A stretch of 64,000 nt of DNA from Alistipes sp. (lineage in GTDB: Bacteria > Bacteroidota > Bacteroidia > Bacteroidales > Rikenellaceae): contig JAGAMA010000012.1 of assembly GCA_017624955.1 (NCBI GenBank), positions 1-64,000 of the forward strand. The letters run 5' to 3'. The position numbers were made by a program, and so were the translations under genes. Below, in pieces: positions 7,248 through 46,769 of this stretch. The stretch's first letter is position 1. Every line of letters starts with the position of its first letter. A model generated the notes under the pieces. It saw nothing but the letters and a program-made list of their open reading frames with translations, was not told the DNA's origin and did no database searches.

Positions 7248-9452
7248 TTATCGAACCGTGATCGTGAGTTTCGATGCAGCCTCCGAAGAGTTACCGACAT
7301 AGAGGTCGTAATCGCCCTTTTCGATCTGCCAACTGTGGCTCGTCTCGTCCCAGTAGGCCAGCTCCTCGACTGCGAACGAAAGCTCCACGCGCTTCGTCTC
7401 GCCGGCCTGCAGGGCGACCTTCTCGAAGGTCTTCAGCTCACGCGGAGCGCGCACCACGGCGCTCTCCGGTTTCGAGGCGTAGAGCTGTACCACCTCTTTA
7501 CCGGCCACCGCACCGCTATTGGTGAGCTCCACGCTGACCGTGATGCGATCCTTCAGGCCGTAGCTTTGTCTCTTTGTCGTGGGTTCGCCCAATTCAAAGG
7601 TGGTGTACGAAAGGCCGTAGCCGAAGGGATAGGCCGGTTTGATGCCCTTGGCCTGCAACCAGCGATAGCCGACCAAGATATCCTCCTTGTAGTAGCACTC
7701 GTCATCGACACCCGGGTAGCACGATGCATCAAAGGCGTGCGCACCGCAATCCTCCAGGCGGGCATAGAACGAGAAGGGCAATTTGCCACTCGGATTTACC
7801 GCACCGCTTACGACATCGACCAGCGCATGGCCCGCCTCCGAGCCACCATACCAACCCTGCACAATCGCACGCGGAAGATGGCTCCACTGCGTTTCGACGG
7901 CATTGCCCGAGATCAACACCACAACCACATTCGGATTGACGGCCGCCAGCTCACGGATCAGCTCCTCCTGACCGAAAGGCAGGGCGTAGGTTTGTCTGTC
8001 GCCATCCTCGCAGTCCTGCTGATGGCTCTTATTCAGACCACCCACAAAGAGCACCACATCGGCTCGGGCGGCCACCTCCAGCGCCTCCTTTTTCAGCTCC
8101 TCGGCATCGTAGGGCGAGGGATTCACGCGACCATACGACGAAGGGCCGCTGCCATAGCCCATGGCGTAGCTCACCTGCTCCGCACCGTAGGCCTCCACCA
8201 TCGCCTCCAGGGGCGACACCTCGCGCCAGGGCTTCAGCTCCGACGAGCCTCCTGCCTTGCACATCGAGCGCGTGGCGTTCTCGCCAATGACGGCGATGCG
8301 CTTCTTATCGGCAGGTTTGAGGGGCAGGATGCCGTCATTCTTCAGCAGCACGATACCCTCGCGCGCCACCTCACGCGCCACGGCGGCATGCTCCTCGGTG
8401 GCAAACGAACCCCACGGGCGATCCTTCGACATCACGGTACGGAAAATCAGGCGCAGGACACGGCGCGCCTTGTCGTCGAGCTTCTCCATCGACACCTCGC
8501 CACGCTTCAGGGCATCGAGGTACGGAAGGGCAAGGTGGTAGTTGTCGTAGTGGTTTTTGGTCGAGTAGGTCAAGCCGTCCGAGCCTGTACCCATCTCGAT
8601 ATCGAGGCCATACTCAGCCGCCTCGTAGGTATCGTGCGCACCACCCCAATCGGAGATAAAAGCGCCATCGAAGCCCCACTCCTCTTTCAGAATCCGATTC
8701 ACCAGCACCTCGTTATGGCAACCATGCTGCCCCAGGTAGCGGTTATAGGAACCCATAAACGACCACGCCCCAGCATCGACCGCCGCTTTGAAGGCCGGCA
8801 GGTAGATCTCGCGCAGGGCGCGCTCCGAAAGATTCGCATTGACCCGCATGCGGCGTGTCTCCTGGTTGTTCAGGGCGTAGTGCTTGACGCAGGTGGCGAT
8901 GCCGCTCTGCTGTGCCGCCTCGATGTAGGGGGCAACCATCACCGAAGCGAGTTTCGGGTCTTCGCCCATATACTCGAAGTTGCGTCCATTGAGCGGTGTG
9001 CGGTAGATATTGACACCCGGGCCGAGCAAGACATCCTTCTTGCGGAAGCGTGCCTCCTCGCCAACGGCCTTACCAAAGAGGGCCGACATCGCGGGATTCC
9101 AGGTCGCCGCCAGGCAGGTCAAGGCCGGAAAGGCGGTGCAGGAGTCGTTGCCCCATCCGGCATAGTCCCAGCTATCCCACTCGATCTCGGCACGCACACC
9201 ATGCGGGCCGTCGCTCATCCACACCTCGGGGATACCGAGGCGCGGTACACCTTTGATCGAGAATTTCGATTGGGCGTGACAAAGCGCCACCTTCTCCTCG
9301 ATCGTAAGGCGGCTCAAGGCATCCTCCACGCGCTCCTCGATCGAGGCATTGGCATCGAGGTAGATCGGATCGGTCGCTTGCGGGGCGCAGCAGCTACCTG
9401 CCCCAACGAGCAGTGCCACAAGGGCCATCCAACGGCAAAAAAGATTCTTCAT
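7248..9452 (-). CDS. GH3 beta-glycosidase (beta-glucosidase/xylosidase type)
   Basis: 734 aa. Lipoprotein-type leader ending GAGSCC. The GH3 barrel covers residues ~35-330: MSDGPHGVR at 79-87, KHYALNNQE at 190-198, and FISDWGGAHD with the catalytic nucleophile Asp268. The alpha/beta sandwich (GIVLLKNDGILPLKPADKKRIAVIGENA) and a C-terminal fibronectin-III-like domain complete the three-domain layout. It hydrolyses terminal beta-linked glucose or xylose from oligosaccharides, probably in the periplasm. It begins 12 bp after the GH31 gene and is therefore likely its operon partner. Substrate is inferred from that pairing, not seen. Confidence 0.9.
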   Translation of the reverse strand: MKNLFCRWMALVALLVGAGSCCAPQATDPIYLDANASIEERVEDALSRLTIEEKVALCHAQSKFSIKGVPRLGIPEVWMSDGPHGVRAEIEWDSWDYAGWGNDSCTAFPALTCLAATWNPAMSALFGKAVGEEARFRKKDVLLGPGVNIYRTPLNGRNFEYMGEDPKLASVMVAPYIEAAQQSGIATCVKHYALNNQETRRMRVNANLSERALREIYLPAFKAAVDAGAWSFMGSYNRYLGQHGCHNEVLVNRILKEEWGFDGAFISDWGGAHDTYEAAEYGLDIEMGTGSDGLTYSTKNHYDNYHLALPYLDALKRGEVSMEKLDDKARRVLRLIFRTVMSKDRPWGSFATEEHAAVAREVAREGIVLLKNDGILPLKPADKKRIAVIGENATRSMCKAGGSSELKPWREVSPLEAMVEAYGAEQVSYAMGYGSGPSSYGRVNPSPYDAEELKKEALEVAARADVVLFVGGLNKSHQQDCEDGDRQTYALPFGQEELIRELAAVNPNVVVVLISGNAVETQWSHLPRAIVQGWYGGSEAGHALVDVVSGAVNPSGKLPFSFYARLEDCGAHAFDASCYPGVDDECYYKEDILVGYRWLQAKGIKPAYPFGYGLSYTTFELGEPTTKRQSYGLKDRITVSVELTNSGAVAGKEVVQLYASKPESAVVRAPRELKTFEKVALQAGETKRVELSFAVEELAYWDETSHSWQIEKGDYDLYVGNSSEAASKLTITVR

Positions 9453-36683: not shown

Positions 36684-36805
36684 AAGGGTTACTAAGGGAT
36701 ACTAAAGGTTACTAAAGGTTACTAAAGGTTACTAAAGGATACTAAAGGCAACTAAAGGCTGCTAAGGGAGTGCTTTAATTACCTTTAGTTACCTTTAGTC
36801 GCCTT
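36684..36805. repeat. decamer array folded as a hairpin
   Basis: About eight direct copies of a 10-bp unit around GGTTACTAAA, a short centre (GGGAGTGCTTTAATT), then two to three reverse-complement copies (ACCTTTAGTT, ACCTTTAGTC). The layout equals the outer hairpins of the ATPase element at 44091 and 45830, but here there is no TGTCAC hairpin or ATPase. Confidence 0.85.
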
Positions 36806-42673: not shown

Positions 42674-43999
42674 CTACAAGGTTTTCGCCAATTTTGCGAA
42701 GTCGTCGGCCGAAACAGCCTTCTCGGTCACCTTGATCTTGGCCTTCACGGCCTCTACAACCTTCTGCTCGAGGAGCTTCTCGTAGATCTTCTGTGCCTGC
42801 TCCTTGTTCTCGAGGATCTGCTTGGCGTAGCCCTCCAGCATATCTTCGGGAGCCGACGGCATGCCGTACTGGGCAAACTGGGCTGCAGCCAGCGCCTTGG
42901 CCTCCGCGGTGGCATCCTCGGGGGTTACCGTGAGCTTCTCCTGCTCGATGAGCTGCTTCTGGATGAAGTTCCAGGTGAACATCTGCAGGAATTGGTCGAA
43001 GTCCTTCTCGATATCCTCCATCGAGAACTTACCCTCGTTGATCGTGTAGAGCCAACGCTTGAGGAAGGCCTCCGGCATCTGCAGGCCGGCCTTCTCGATG
43101 AGGTAGTTGCGCACCTGGAGCGTGAACATGTAGTCGCTCTCACGACCCAGCTCACGGGCGATCTCCTCGTCGAGCATCTTATCCAGCTCCTTCTCATTGG
43201 TTACATTGCCTGCGGGGAAAGCCATCTTGAAGAACTCCTCGCTCAGCTCCGGCTCCGAGAACTTGCGGATCTTCGTGATCTCCAGCTCGAACTCGGGGTT
43301 GATCGATGCGAGCTCCTCGGCCTTCACCTGGAGGATGGCGGCGCGCTGTGCCTCGGTCTTGTAAAGCTCGTTTACATTGACCTGCATCTTGTCGCCCACC
43401 TTCTTACCCAGGAAGGGCTTGCGCTCCTCCTCGGTCATCGAGATCAGCCCTACATAGGCATCCTGAATCTGCATCTCGCCGTTGTCCAGCACCACGGTCA
43501 GGGCCTCGTCCGAGGCTACCTCCTCCACGTCTACCAGGCGACCGAAGCGGCGCAGGTAGTTCTCGCGGTAGTCGGCGTGCATCTTCTTGTCGATCTTGAT
43601 CTTGTTGTAGGTCAGCTTGTCCTTCTCCGTAAGCTCGAGGTTGAGTGCGGGAGCCTCGCCCACCTCAAACTTGAACTCGAACTCCGTGCCGTTCTCGAAG
43701 TCGAAGTCGCCCTGCTCCTCCGAGGGGATCACATCACCCAGGTAGTCGATCTTCTCCTTCTGCAGGTACTCGAACACGGCATTCGAAGCCATGCGGTACG
43801 ACTGCTCGGCCAGGACACCCTTGCCGTACATCTTCTTGACGATGCCCATGGGCACCATGCCGGGACGGAAGCCCGGAATGTTGGCCTTGCGACGGTACTC
43901 GCGCAGAGCCTTCTCCACCTCGGCAGCATAATCTGCCTCGACAACTTTCACGCTGAGGATCGAAACACCACCCTCGCGCTGATCGCGTACAATGTTCAT
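42674..43999 (-). CDS. tig: trigger factor (ribosome-associated chaperone)
   Basis: 441 aa. The N-terminal ribosome-binding domain carries the diverged signature FRPGMVPMGIVKKMYG (residues ~44-59; consensus GFRxGxxP). The middle FKBP-like domain is degenerate, as in other Bacteroidota, and the C-terminal helical arms are rich in Glu/Lys. Assists nascent chain folding. Upstream of clpP in the common tig-clpP-clpX order. Confidence 0.93.
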   Translation of the reverse strand: MNIVRDQREGGVSILSVKVVEADYAAEVEKALREYRRKANIPGFRPGMVPMGIVKKMYGKGVLAEQSYRMASNAVFEYLQKEKIDYLGDVIPSEEQGDFDFENGTEFEFKFEVGEAPALNLELTEKDKLTYNKIKIDKKMHADYRENYLRRFGRLVDVEEVASDEALTVVLDNGEMQIQDAYVGLISMTEEERKPFLGKKVGDKMQVNVNELYKTEAQRAAILQVKAEELASINPEFELEITKIRKFSEPELSEEFFKMAFPAGNVTNEKELDKMLDEEIARELGRESDYMFTLQVRNYLIEKAGLQMPEAFLKRWLYTINEGKFSMEDIEKDFDQFLQMFTWNFIQKQLIEQEKLTVTPEDATAEAKALAAAQFAQYGMPSAPEDMLEGYAKQILENKEQAQKIYEKLLEQKVVEAVKAKIKVTEKAVSADDFAKLAKTL

Positions 44000-44050
44000 A
44001 GTAAATAAGTTATATTCGTTTTGCTTCTCTATTCATGCACATTCGGCGCG

Positions 44051-44081
44051 CAAAGATACAAATATTAATTAAGAATTCAAA
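44051..44081 (-). promoter_or_regulatory. promoter for tig
   Basis: TATCTTTG (44051-44058) and TTTG (44078-44081) with an exact 19-bp spacer on the minus strand. It ends about ten bases before the left arm of the ATPase element. Confidence 0.8.
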
Positions 44082-44090
44082 ATAATTAAG

Positions 44091-44215
44091 GGGGCTAAAG
44101 GGAGCTAAAGGCGACTAAAGGGGACTAAAGGCAACTAAGGGCAACTAAGGGCGACTAAGGGCGACTAACGCACAACCAACCCCCTTAGCTACCCTTAGTA
44201 ACCCTTAGTAACCTT
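44091..44215. repeat. left outer hairpin of decamers
   Basis: Seven to eight direct 10-bp units around GGCGACTAAA/GGCAACTAAG, a centre GCACAACCAACCCCC, then three reverse units (CTACCCTTAG, TAACCCTTAG, TAACCTTTC). Mirrored by 45830-45912. Confidence 0.85.
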
Positions 44216-44255
44216 TCATCCACGACCGCCAACAGCTCCACCACCGTCCACTACC

Positions 44256-44324
44256 TGTCACCGGTGTCACACCTGTCACACCTGTCACAGGTGTCACGCC
44301 CTGTGACAGTGTGACAGCGTGACA
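44256..44324. repeat. left inner iterons: 5 TGTCAC then 3 GTGACA
   Basis: TGTCAC starts at 44256, 44265, 44274, 44283 and 44292 (9-bp spacing); GTGACA starts at 44303, 44311 and 44319 (8-bp spacing). The two halves are complementary and can form a hairpin. The ATPase promoter lies 31 bp further on, so the protein or another factor could bind here to regulate it. Confidence 0.9.
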
Positions 44325-44354
44325 CCCCCCCCTCAAAAAAAATAACCCAAAACT

Positions 44355-44386
44355 CTTGACAAGCGGGTTCAATTATTGTATATTTG
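44355..44386 (+). promoter_or_regulatory. promoter for the RepA-like ATPase gene
   Basis: CTTG (44355-44358), 20-bp spacer, TATATTTG (44379-44386). It gives a ~200-nt untranslated leader rich in CA/AC, with an 8-bp stem ACCTGTAA (44524-44531) / TTACAGGT (44550-44557) around an 18-nt loop containing ATGCAT. Confidence 0.65.
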
Positions 44387-44596
44387 CAGGCGGATAGGAG
44401 AACCTACCTGCCACACATCGTACAACACACCGCACCACACACTGCGCTTCGCAACACACATTTCCCTACGCGCAGCCCTGTTCGGGTGCTTTTGCACGAA
44501 TCTTACAAAACCAACCGTAACCGACCTGTAAGGCAATGCATGCTACGCTTTACAGGTAGTTACATACATCTAATCATTATAAATAATATTTATACT

Positions 44597-45775
44597 ATGG
44601 TAACTACTGATAAGCTTCAGCAGCCTGCTGCGGGTATGCCTATTGCACCCGCCACAAAGTCAAATAATTTGACTGATACGATGCCCTTCGCGGGTACTTA
44701 CCGCGAGTACCTCGATGACTTGGCGGCCTCTCGTTTTGCCCCCTACCGTATCAACATGGAGGAGCAATACGAAGAGCCGAAACCGATTCTCACGATCGAC
44801 TCGGTCTCGGTATGCACACCGGGCAACCTCTCGGCCATTGTCGGTGCGCCGAAGAGTAAGAAGACCTTCCTTACGACGGCCCTCATCGGCTCGATGTTGG
44901 CCTTGGGTAAAAAGGCACGCCCCTTTCAGAATGTGGGGCGTAACCCCCTGCACAGGGTCTTGTGGCTCGATACGGAGCAGAGCAAGAGCCATGTGCGCAA
45001 GGTGGTGGATCGCCTCCATACGCTCATGGGGTTCACCGCTACGGAGGGCTATCCGATGGATTCGCGCCTGACGGTCGTATCGCTGCGTGAGTTAGAGCCG
45101 CAGGTACGCCTGGAGGCGCTGACCGAGGAGATCGAGCTGTTGCGACCCTCGATGGTGGTCGTGGACGGCATTGCCGACCTGCAACGCAACACGAACGACT
45201 TGGAGGAGAGCGACCGGTTGGTCAATCGGCTGATGGCGCTCTCGACGCTCCACGATTGCCACATCCTCTGTGTGCTGCATGCCAATCCGGGTACGGACAA
45301 GGCACGCGGACACCTCGGCTCGTCGCTCCAGCGCAAGGCCGAGACGGTGATCTATGTCCACAAGGTGGGCGAAAGGTCGATCGTTGAGCCGCAGTTCTGC
45401 CGCAACGAACCCTTTGAGCGCTTTGCCTTTATGGTGGGCGAGGAGGGTATTCCGATCCTGGCCGAGCTTCCCGAGGAGGGGTCGCAGGAGGGGGATCGGC
45501 TGCTGCAACTCATCCGCACGGAGTATGGCGGTGTGGTGGAGCGTTCGGTCTTGGCACATAAGCTCCGCGAGGTGTTGGGGTTGGGGCGCACGGCGGCCCT
45601 GATGCGCATCGCGCGAGCGCTTCGCAGTGGCCGTTTGGTGGAAGAGGAGGGGTTGGTTCGACTGCCCGATGTGAGCTGTCACGCTGTCACGCTGTCACAG
45701 GGCGTGACACCCGTGACACCCGTGACACCTGTGACACCTGTGACAGAGGAGGAGGAAGAGGAGTGTCCGTTTTAG
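44597..45775 (+). CDS. RepA-like AAA/RecA-fold ATPase with acidic PF tail
   Basis: 392 aa from MVTTDKLQQP; an in-frame ATG 71 codons upstream overlaps the promoter box. Walker A GAPKSKKT (83-90), Walker B MVVVDGI (186-192) and CVLHANPGTDKARGHLGSSLQRKAE (225-249) place it with RepA-type hexameric helicase/AAA_25 ATPases. Residues ~300-355 look like a winged helix (AALMRIARALRSGRLVEEEGL). The tail is four VTP repeats, written by the GTGACACCC iterons of the right arm, then EEEEEECPF, an acidic tip ending Pro-Phe like SSB tails. A role in replication or repair is inference. No primase, Rep or relaxase is next to it. Confidence 0.8.
   Translation: MVTTDKLQQPAAGMPIAPATKSNNLTDTMPFAGTYREYLDDLAASRFAPYRINMEEQYEEPKPILTIDSVSVCTPGNLSAIVGAPKSKKTFLTTALIGSMLALGKKARPFQNVGRNPLHRVLWLDTEQSKSHVRKVVDRLHTLMGFTATEGYPMDSRLTVVSLRELEPQVRLEALTEEIELLRPSMVVVDGIADLQRNTNDLEESDRLVNRLMALSTLHDCHILCVLHANPGTDKARGHLGSSLQRKAETVIYVHKVGERSIVEPQFCRNEPFERFAFMVGEEGIPILAELPEEGSQEGDRLLQLIRTEYGGVVERSVLAHKLREVLGLGRTAALMRIARALRSGRLVEEEGLVRLPDVSCHAVTLSQGVTPVTPVTPVTPVTEEEEEECPF
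45677..45745. repeat. right inner iterons: 3 TGTCAC then 5 GTGACA
   Basis: TGTCAC starts at 45677, 45685 and 45693 (8-bp spacing); GTGACA starts at 45704, 45713, 45722, 45731 and 45740 (9-bp spacing). Exact mirror of the left set. It lies inside the ATPase coding sequence; the 9-bp spacing keeps frame and encodes V-T-P. Confidence 0.92.
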
Positions 45776-45829
45776 GTGGGGAAGGTAGCTGACGGTGGTG
45801 GAGCTATTGACCGTCGTGGAGGAAGGGTT

Positions 45830-45912
45830 GCTAAAGGTTGCTAAAGGTTGCTAAGGGGGTAGGTTGTGCGTTAGTCGCCCTTAGTCCCCTTTAGTTCCCT
45901 TTAGTCGCCCCC
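45830..45912. repeat. right outer hairpin of decamers
   Basis: Three direct units of GGTTGCTAAA, a centre GGGGGTAGGTTGTGCG, then four to five reverse units around TTAGTCGCCC. Reverse complement of the left outer hairpin. Confidence 0.85.
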
Positions 45913-45962
45913 CCAATTCTCTTAATTTTTAATTTTCCGAAAGAGCTTTGCTCTTTTTTCAC

Positions 45963-45970
45963 TATATTTG
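45963..45970 (+). promoter_or_regulatory. -7 box of a leaderless cyclotransferase-metH-metF run
   Basis: TATATTTG ends four bases before the ATG at 45975. Confidence 0.55.
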
Positions 45971-45974
45971 CCCT

Positions 45975-46769
45975 ATGAAACACCTCAAAACACTGCTTTT
46001 TCTGTTGCTCGTCTTGCCAATGGCCTGTGGATGTGGCCGTAAGGGGCGCACGGTGCAACTCGATCTCAAAGAGCCTACGCGCTACACCTACCGCGTGGTG
46101 GCCGAATATGCCCACTCGCGCGAAGCCTACACGCAGGGGCTTCACTACACGGACGGCCTCCTGTGGGAGGGTACGGGCGAGTATGGCCATTCGCTCCTCA
46201 AAACCACCGACCTGGCAACGGGTCGGGAGGAGATTCTCCACCGCCTCCCCGAGGGGGAGTTTGGCGAGGGTATCACGCTGCTGGGCGACACGATCTACCA
46301 GCTCACCTGGACCGAGAATGTCTGCCACCTCTACAGCCGCTCGTCGGGGCTGAGAATCGGCGACTTCCGCTACGCAGGCGAGGGGTGGGGACTTGCCACC
46401 GATGGCACGCAGCTCTACTTCTCGAACGGCACACCCACGATCTATCGCCTTGATCCCAAGACCTTTGCACGCCGTGGCTCGATGGCCGTGACGCTCCGTG
46501 GCGAGCCGATCAACTACATCAACGAGTTGGAGTGGATCGACGGACGGCTCTGGGCCAATGTCTACCTCACGGACGAGATTCTGATGATCAACCCCCGATC
46601 GGGTGTCGTCGAGGGGATCCTCAACCTCGCAGGCATCCTCCCCGAGGCGGAGCGTGAGATGACGACCGACGTGCTGAACGGCATCGCCTATGACGAGGCT
46701 GCGGGGCGCATCTTCATCACGGGCAAGAAGTGGCCGAAAATCTACCAAATCGAACTCATCAAACAATGA
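45975..46769 (+). CDS. glutaminyl-peptide cyclotransferase-like lipoprotein
   Basis: 264 aa with an export signal ending PMACGC. The family of bacterial glutamine cyclotransferases (plant-type, five-bladed propeller) is indicated by [73 protein letters not shown] and DVLNGIAYD. It would convert N-terminal Gln to pyroglutamate on exported peptides. Its stop overlaps the metH start (ATGA). Confidence 0.88.

Follow-up and report, generated by a model that had tools for sequence, protein, structure and literature searches.

A family of small single-gene units with matching iteron-hairpin ends, differently placed among gut Alistipes species

Small units that hold a single ATPase gene between matching hairpin ends form a family that is differently placed among gut Alistipes species. 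The unit at the centre of this work lies at 44091-45912 of the window (the whole stretch of 64,000 nucleotides that was analysed; genome G000); its single ORF, an AAA_25 ATPase, is enclosed by inverted arms, with tig on one side and a glutamine cyclotransferase gene on the other. Within each element the arms are mirrored and the iteron word changes in concert; occupancy of the sites is variable, and elements and sites are partly uncoupled. On balance the unit is read as a member of an Alistipes family of single-gene, probably selfish mobile units, namely a stripped replication-helicase element with iteron-hairpin ends. The features are as follows (window coordinates).

start 43999, minus strand: tig, flanking gene of the unit (Pfam)
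44091..44218, no strand: left outer hairpin, formed by decamers (GGNNACTAAA) with inverted copies of them; a dispersed repeat in its own right
44253..44326, no strand: left inner arm, five TGTCAC iterons (9-bp steps), GC spacer, three GTGACA (8-bp steps); element-specific end
44356..44386, plus strand: promoter-like TTGACA ... TATATTTG, predicted from sequence
44387..44596, plus strand: leader, AT-rich immediately 5' of the ATG
44597..45775, plus strand: AAA_25 ATPase gene, 392 aa (Pfam)
44843-44869, plus strand: Walker A-like GAPKSKKTF, within the ATPase gene
45155-45181, plus strand: Walker B-like VVVDGIADL, within the ATPase gene
residues ~300-347 of the ATPase: probable winged helix, from sub-cut-off hits in relatives only
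45677..45746, no strand: right inner arm, three TGTCAC (8-bp) then five GTGACA (9-bp); mirrors the left one and overlaps the CDS
45783..45912, no strand: right outer part, inverted copy (86%) of 44130-44256 plus the decamers preceding that
45822-45912: right outer decamer hairpin, inside the right outer part
from 45975, plus strand: glutamine cyclotransferase gene, flanking gene of the unit (Pfam)

Exact inverted blocks of 25 bp (44153-44177/45862-45886), 20 bp (44290-44309/45692-45711) and 15 bp (44310-44324/45685-45699) were found in the two arms, as the initial annotation had described. On the left, TGTCAC stands at 44256, 44265, 44274, 44283 and 44292 (9-bp steps), followed by GTGACA at 44303, 44311 and 44319 (8-bp steps); on the right, TGTCAC at 45677, 45685 and 45693 (8-bp steps), followed by GTGACA at 45704, 45713, 45722, 45731 and 45740 (9-bp steps); every position agrees with the mirrored spacing (5 × 9 bp and 3 × 8 bp on both sides) reported there. 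The best distant inverted match within 43500-46600 scored 162 bits; 200 dinucleotide shuffles reached 30 bits at most. Folded as single-stranded DNA, the four hairpins gave z = -5.8, -3.0, -4.0 and -4.5; the right inner hairpin was equalled by 3/200 shuffles, each of the other three by 0/200. The CDS (44597-45775) extends over the right inner hairpin, which encodes the V-T-P tail, and the left arm keeps the same spacing in non-coding DNA, again as annotated; V-T-P coding alone was ruled out as the cause of the spacing, since the left arm is non-coding. The start of the ATPase was set at 44597, where the alignment to L111 begins (an in-frame ATG is also present at 44540). The ORF stops before the best-matched right-arm block in 34/43 elements; the best-matched block of the window unit is its outer part. 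A search for known RNAs gave eight Rfam hits at E ≤ 1, all under the gathering scores, seven of them miRNA families fitted to the hairpins.

The RepA-like ATPase gene that had been annotated as alone between the arms was assigned to Pfam AAA_25 (PF13481; 51.3 bits, cut-off 27; P-loop present). The same family was matched at E ≤ 0.001 by 60/60 aligned relatives (alignment A1, 60/61 close copies, L131 omitted), and G83, K86, K89 and D190 (P-loop and Walker B-like residues) are invariant in the 60 aligned proteins. The enclosed ORF gave AAA_25 only in Pfam and helicase/primase-type hits in PHROGs, which bears out the annotation of a unit with no transposase or Rep; no relaxase stands beside the gene either, the neighbours being tig and the glutamine cyclotransferase gene. 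No nuclease or strand-transfer domain was visible in the ATPase. Winged-helix families gave sub-cut-off hits at residues ~290-347 in L121, L122, L123, L158 and L162 (5/10 proteins tested); no named NCBIfam family was found for the window protein at E ≤ 0.01, and no solved structural relative at E 0.01 (profile search); dN/dS: 0.07-0.27 for 10/11 pairs, 0.85 for L130/L131, from very few changes. A CHC2/Toprim primase gene adjoins the homologues L140, L182 and L183 (32-35% identity), with DUF3853 also near L182 and Mob_Pre also near L140; a tyrosine integrase gene lies near the armless L174 and L175 (40 and 38% identity), with a gp3 packaging gene also near L175. Because distant homologues adjoin primase, Mob_Pre or integrase genes, the most likely ancestor of the ATPase gene is a replication helicase gene carried by integrative elements or satellites.

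Related genomes were searched for the arm and the ATPase, as the initial annotation had proposed, and relatives of both were found in the genus. ATPase matches at E ≤ 0.001 (partly distant homologues) were obtained in 72/180 genus genomes (32/70 of the most complete), and none in 108/180 (38/70). Close copies (at least 200 bits and an ORF of at least 300 aa) number 61, from 50/180 genomes; outside the 61 stand partial copies in G166, G155, G120 C13, G212, G028 and others. A first contig scan with a single protein query gave no relative; in the wider contig search 65/80 kept loci were labelled Alistipes or Rikenellaceae, many of them ruminant gut MAGs, and the remaining ones comprised one at 40% labelled Clostridia and 14 at 27-40% in other Bacteroidota or allied groups. 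The close family was also sought on plasmids, phages and viral contigs and rejected there, the matches listed (best 12 of 19, 12 of 17 and 19 of 19) having 26-40% identity. A second full element of the window's genome was located at L017:170-1955, its arms being TGTTAC/GTAACA and its outer repeats of the CACTGGGGC type; single TGTTAC/GTAACA arms occur elsewhere in this genome too. The promoter form TTGwC...TAnnTTTG was found upstream of the conserved domain in 48/61 copies. No flanking stretch is common to more than 4 of the 61 close loci (flanks compared as whole stretches by tblastx, >100 bits).

Iteron words across the elements include TGTCAC, GTAACA, CGAACA, TGTTAA, TGTAAT, GCTCAC, GTGATT and TGAAAT; the GTAACA arm was detected in 20/180 genomes. 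The arms were compared in 56/61 copies, the five without a 150-nt flank being dropped and L174 and L175 (38-40% identity), in which no arms were found, being kept. The sum of own left-right arm scores was 5702 bits vs a maximum of 1639 in 10,000 random pairings (56 copies); the best partner of the left arm was its own right arm in 43/56; a match of at least 50 bits was reached by 43/56 own pairs and 61/3080 mismatched pairs. The own-arm match stayed under 50 bits in 13/56, and own-arm matches are undercounted, since inner right arms inside the ORF tail, that of the window included, lie outside the compared region. In a wider earlier comparison the own arm was best in 37/56, partly since flanking genes at shared loci outscored it. 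In genomes with several copies, the arms were alike at 50 bits in just 2/11 tested copy pairs. Free divergence of the arms between strains had been named as an outcome that would speak against the annotation; the arms were found to diverge between elements, but in concert within each. The more identical two ATPases are, the more similar are their arms (rho 0.37, Mantel p 0.001, 55 elements); such a correlation is predicted by cognate recognition, and common descent alone could give the same. These results leave both earlier guesses standing: that conversion keeps the arms alike, and that the arms are under selection for their pairing within an origin-like or mobile unit.

The favoured reading would run as follows. 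The plan of the unit is taken to be an iteron hairpin arm, a strong promoter, a leader, a RepA/DnaB-type ATPase with a probable C-terminal winged helix, and the mirrored hairpin arm. The protein would be the replication helicase of an integrative element after loss of its primase, integrase and relaxase partners. It would bind its own arms as iteron initiators do, would load on them once the hairpins form at the replication fork, and could act on arms in trans, sustaining miniature copies. Local unwinding or re-copying between the arms might yield a hairpin-ended copy, which host repair or recombination would capture at a different intergenic position; the arms would be equalised, and the unit at times inverted, by synthesis that is hairpin-primed or switches template, or simply by gene conversion. 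Since no nuclease or strand-transfer domain is visible, autonomous movement by the ATPase would be without known chemistry. A further-reaching claim is put forward tentatively and with more doubt than belief: that this is a new kind of mobile DNA, encoding nothing but a replicative-helicase ATPase, which moves or multiplies via its own iteron hairpins without transposase, integrase, relaxase or Rep nuclease, and in which the two ends are rewritten together, with rapid emergence of new end-specificities and mutual independence of lineages as the result.

A search for the cyclotransferase gene located it in 166/180 genomes, and 30 of its loci, that of the window among them, were retrieved; in 13 of the 30 tig also lies within the stretch and no ATPase was found, the tig-cyclotransferase gap being ~0.1-0.4 kb in 12/13. 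The genome closest of the 180 by cyclotransferase (G024, 84%) has an empty tig-cyclotransferase site of ~180 bp, with tig 97% identical. In G020 the gap is ~1 kb and contains an ATPase-less pair whose iterons are different; G165 has an ATPase element from a separate lineage next to the cyclotransferase gene (the contig ends in its left arm), most closely related (69%) to the second element of G000, which lies at another locus. Fixation at the locus in all relatives, with no empty sites or other copies, had been named beforehand as the finding that would count against the annotated unit; the closest relative was found empty, and copies and short derivatives exist. At the mce locus an ATPase-less pair lies in the window's genome and a full element in G038 (59% to the window ATPase), and neither was found in the stretches read of G024, G165 and G020 (junction compared in 4/8 fetched relatives: G024, G165, G020 and G038); this ATPase-less copy may sit at a rearrangement point. 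By eye, the sequence from L016:9470 onward, right of the mce locus, differs between the window's genome, G024 and G020/G165.

Other shared sites are occupied as follows. L121/L123: common site, flanks 93 and 83% nt, ATPases 58% identical, arms different; L118/L155: common site, inverted, ATPases 54%; L125: inverted vs L126 and L159, element 83 and 82% nt, flanks 87-92%. L125/L126/L159 and L150/L161 are close relatives at the same loci, and there the element tracks the locus. In L130/L131 the ATPase is 99.3% identical (nt; dS 0.007), the flanks are ~91%, and the similar tract begins ~215 bp outside the arm; apart from one outer segment, no part of the tract has changed as much as the arm. This pair represents the one recent inter-species exchange, the tract being such as homologous recombination would give. 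The central loop of the arm at L130 2604-2680 (ATPase strand) runs in the opposite sense in L131, like a hairpin-end flip/flop (ATPases 99% identical). Comparison of occupied with empty tig-cyclotransferase sites, also proposed in the initial annotation, delivered the empty sites and not the exact ends or target duplication; neither exact ends nor a target duplication nor an excised form came to light at tig-cyclotransferase, mce and the shared loci, the intergenic DNA of the relatives compared being too diverged to define ends.

These sites bear on the main rival explanation, a vertically inherited accessory gene whose inverted repeats are passively homogenised by RecA-type gene conversion and whose loss, together with genome rearrangement, leaves a patchy occupancy, with no movement by any action of the unit itself. 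It agrees with the siblings at the same locus, with inversion at a single locus, which is the product expected of recombination between inverted repeats, and with the exchanged tract of L130/L131, which is larger than the element. Against it stand the presence of unlike ATPase lineages between the conserved flanks of a single site (L121/L123), the kinship of the cyclotransferase-side copy of G165 with the second element of G000 elsewhere (69%), and duplicated ATPase-less copies; because these three findings need movement of some kind, passive inheritance is considered rather unlikely.

ATPase-less inverted arm pairs were found in eight genomes: G000 (C35, C36), G020, G003, G022, G040, G138, G161 and G165. 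In G161, G138, G003, G165 and G022 their arms match a resident ATPase element; in G040 such pairs are present and no ATPase was found. The C35 and C36 copies of G000 have a 352-bp core in common at 92%, and because this core matches at different loci, copying after gene loss is probable. Further TGTCAC arms occur elsewhere in 5/13 genomes with GTCAC-rich ATPase arms vs 2/167 others (Fisher p 1.7e-5; the 13 were defined by a simple count of at least four GTCAC/GTGAC and include the arm-less G108 and the mixed-word G165). At L016 ~8905-9235 and L015 ~1505-1840 an ATPase-less core bounded by a 15-bp direct repeat (GTTCAATRRTTGTAC) was noted by eye; the repeat resembles the family promoter, as if insertion had occurred into a promoter.

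The miniature copies without ATPase, found also in G040, together with the absence of a strand-transfer domain from the ATPase, are what would be seen if the arms were the ends of a passively moved unit, with a host transposase or integrase moving anything between them and the ATPase as cargo (the search for host transposases elsewhere in the genome covered one family, Y1). The ATPase gene stays constant, however, while the arm words change, and arm similarity follows ATPase identity, so that a cargo role is improbable. A locus for replication or regulation without mobility, either an origin-like site or arms that work as bidirectional terminators or as insulators on both sides of a gene with strong expression, is given a slightly smaller chance again. 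The iterons, the AT-rich leader and the helicase-type protein look origin-like, and the upstream neighbour is directed away from the ATPase in 39 of the 47 loci at which both neighbours were called (23 divergent, 16 and 1 tandem, 7 convergent); terminators, on the other hand, need no mutual sequence match, a consensus scan found no terminator-like site in 43900-46100, and the unit is no essential origin, because 108/180 genus genomes lack an ATPase match. That the ATPase is a defence protein is weakly suggested by PADLOC mad8, which matches it at residues 134-233 (E 4.1e-5) and matches 15/60 members too.

Four known kinds of element were set beside the unit, which is still read as a stripped helicase element. 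In RSF1010/IncQ a RepA-type hexameric helicase and an iteron origin share one unit, with a RepC-type initiator and a primase alongside; the helicase family and the iterons recur together here, but the window unit is chromosomal, has two mirrored iteron arrays and lacks an adjacent RepC-type initiator or primase (neighbours: tig and glutamine cyclotransferase). An IncQ-type replicon was rejected on the missing primase or initiator beside the ATPase gene. An insertion sequence with MITE derivatives has inverted ends, one gene and gene-less miniature copies, as does the window family; the window unit differs in that it has no transposase, no target duplication or exact ends were found, and the end sequences turn over rapidly. 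An insertion sequence was rejected because the unit holds no transposase (ORF AAA_25 only in Pfam). Bacteroidales mobilizable elements (AAA_25 helicase beside primase, DUF3853 or Mob_Pre) carry a homologous ATPase (32-35% in L140, L182 and L183) and are the likely source; the window unit differs in having neither primase nor relaxase nor integrase, its gene being alone between the arms.

By architecture the nearest known kind is the REPIN-RAYT system (REPtron; PMC3116915, PMC8266576), one Y1 HUH transposase gene flanked by palindromic REPs. Common to both are one gene between palindromic repeats, co-variation of repeat and protein, and occurrence of the flanking repeat as inverted pairs at other places in the genome (C35 and C36 of G000, and other genomes); the window unit differs in its protein (AAA_25 ATPase, not HUH Y1 transposase), its arms (8-9-bp iteron arrays) and its few copies per genome. 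An actual REPtron, in which a HUH Y1 transposase (RAYT) mobilises the hairpins as REPINs, would account for the gene between palindromes and the dispersed inverted pairs, and was rejected as very improbable, since Y1_Tnp was found in 2/180 genus genomes and not in that of the window.

No description of such a unit was seen in titles and abstract beginnings among the open-licence papers listed, and because of this it is regarded as a unit of a new sort, whose nature is judged with moderate confidence. If the proposal is true, a helicase and hairpin ends suffice for DNA to spread within genomes, and the unit would be a minimal element between replicons and transposons. Even without self-movement the arms are a natural series in which paired, putative binding-site arrays switch word yet stay matched per unit, by which co-evolution of protein-DNA specificity and paired repeats becomes directly testable.

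The initial annotation had treated each ~235-bp arm as one thing; its sequence was confirmed and its unity was not, the arm being a composite of two repeats. Only the inner iterons belong to the element; the outer decamers, a repeat dispersed independently of it, were rejected as part of element identity. The two-decamer pattern of the outer repeat gave 46 matches (overlaps included) in the window's genome and is present in 7/180 genus genomes, among them G033 and G008, which have no ATPase match; the closest relative, G024, gave 0. The inner TGTCAC arm was found in 9/180 genus genomes at E ≤ 1e-5 and is rarer. In the C35 copy the order differs, and the decamers lie inside the TGTCAC arms. A further inverted array of the decamer (GGNNACTAAA), with no ATPase match, was noted at 36686-36804 of the window, and the stretch 28850-28919 matches the outer repeat belonging to this genome's second (TGTTAC) element. 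As the arms and flanks of L121, L126, L156 and L159 show, the intergenic DNA of these genomes is filled with more families of short tandem units in hairpin arrangement.
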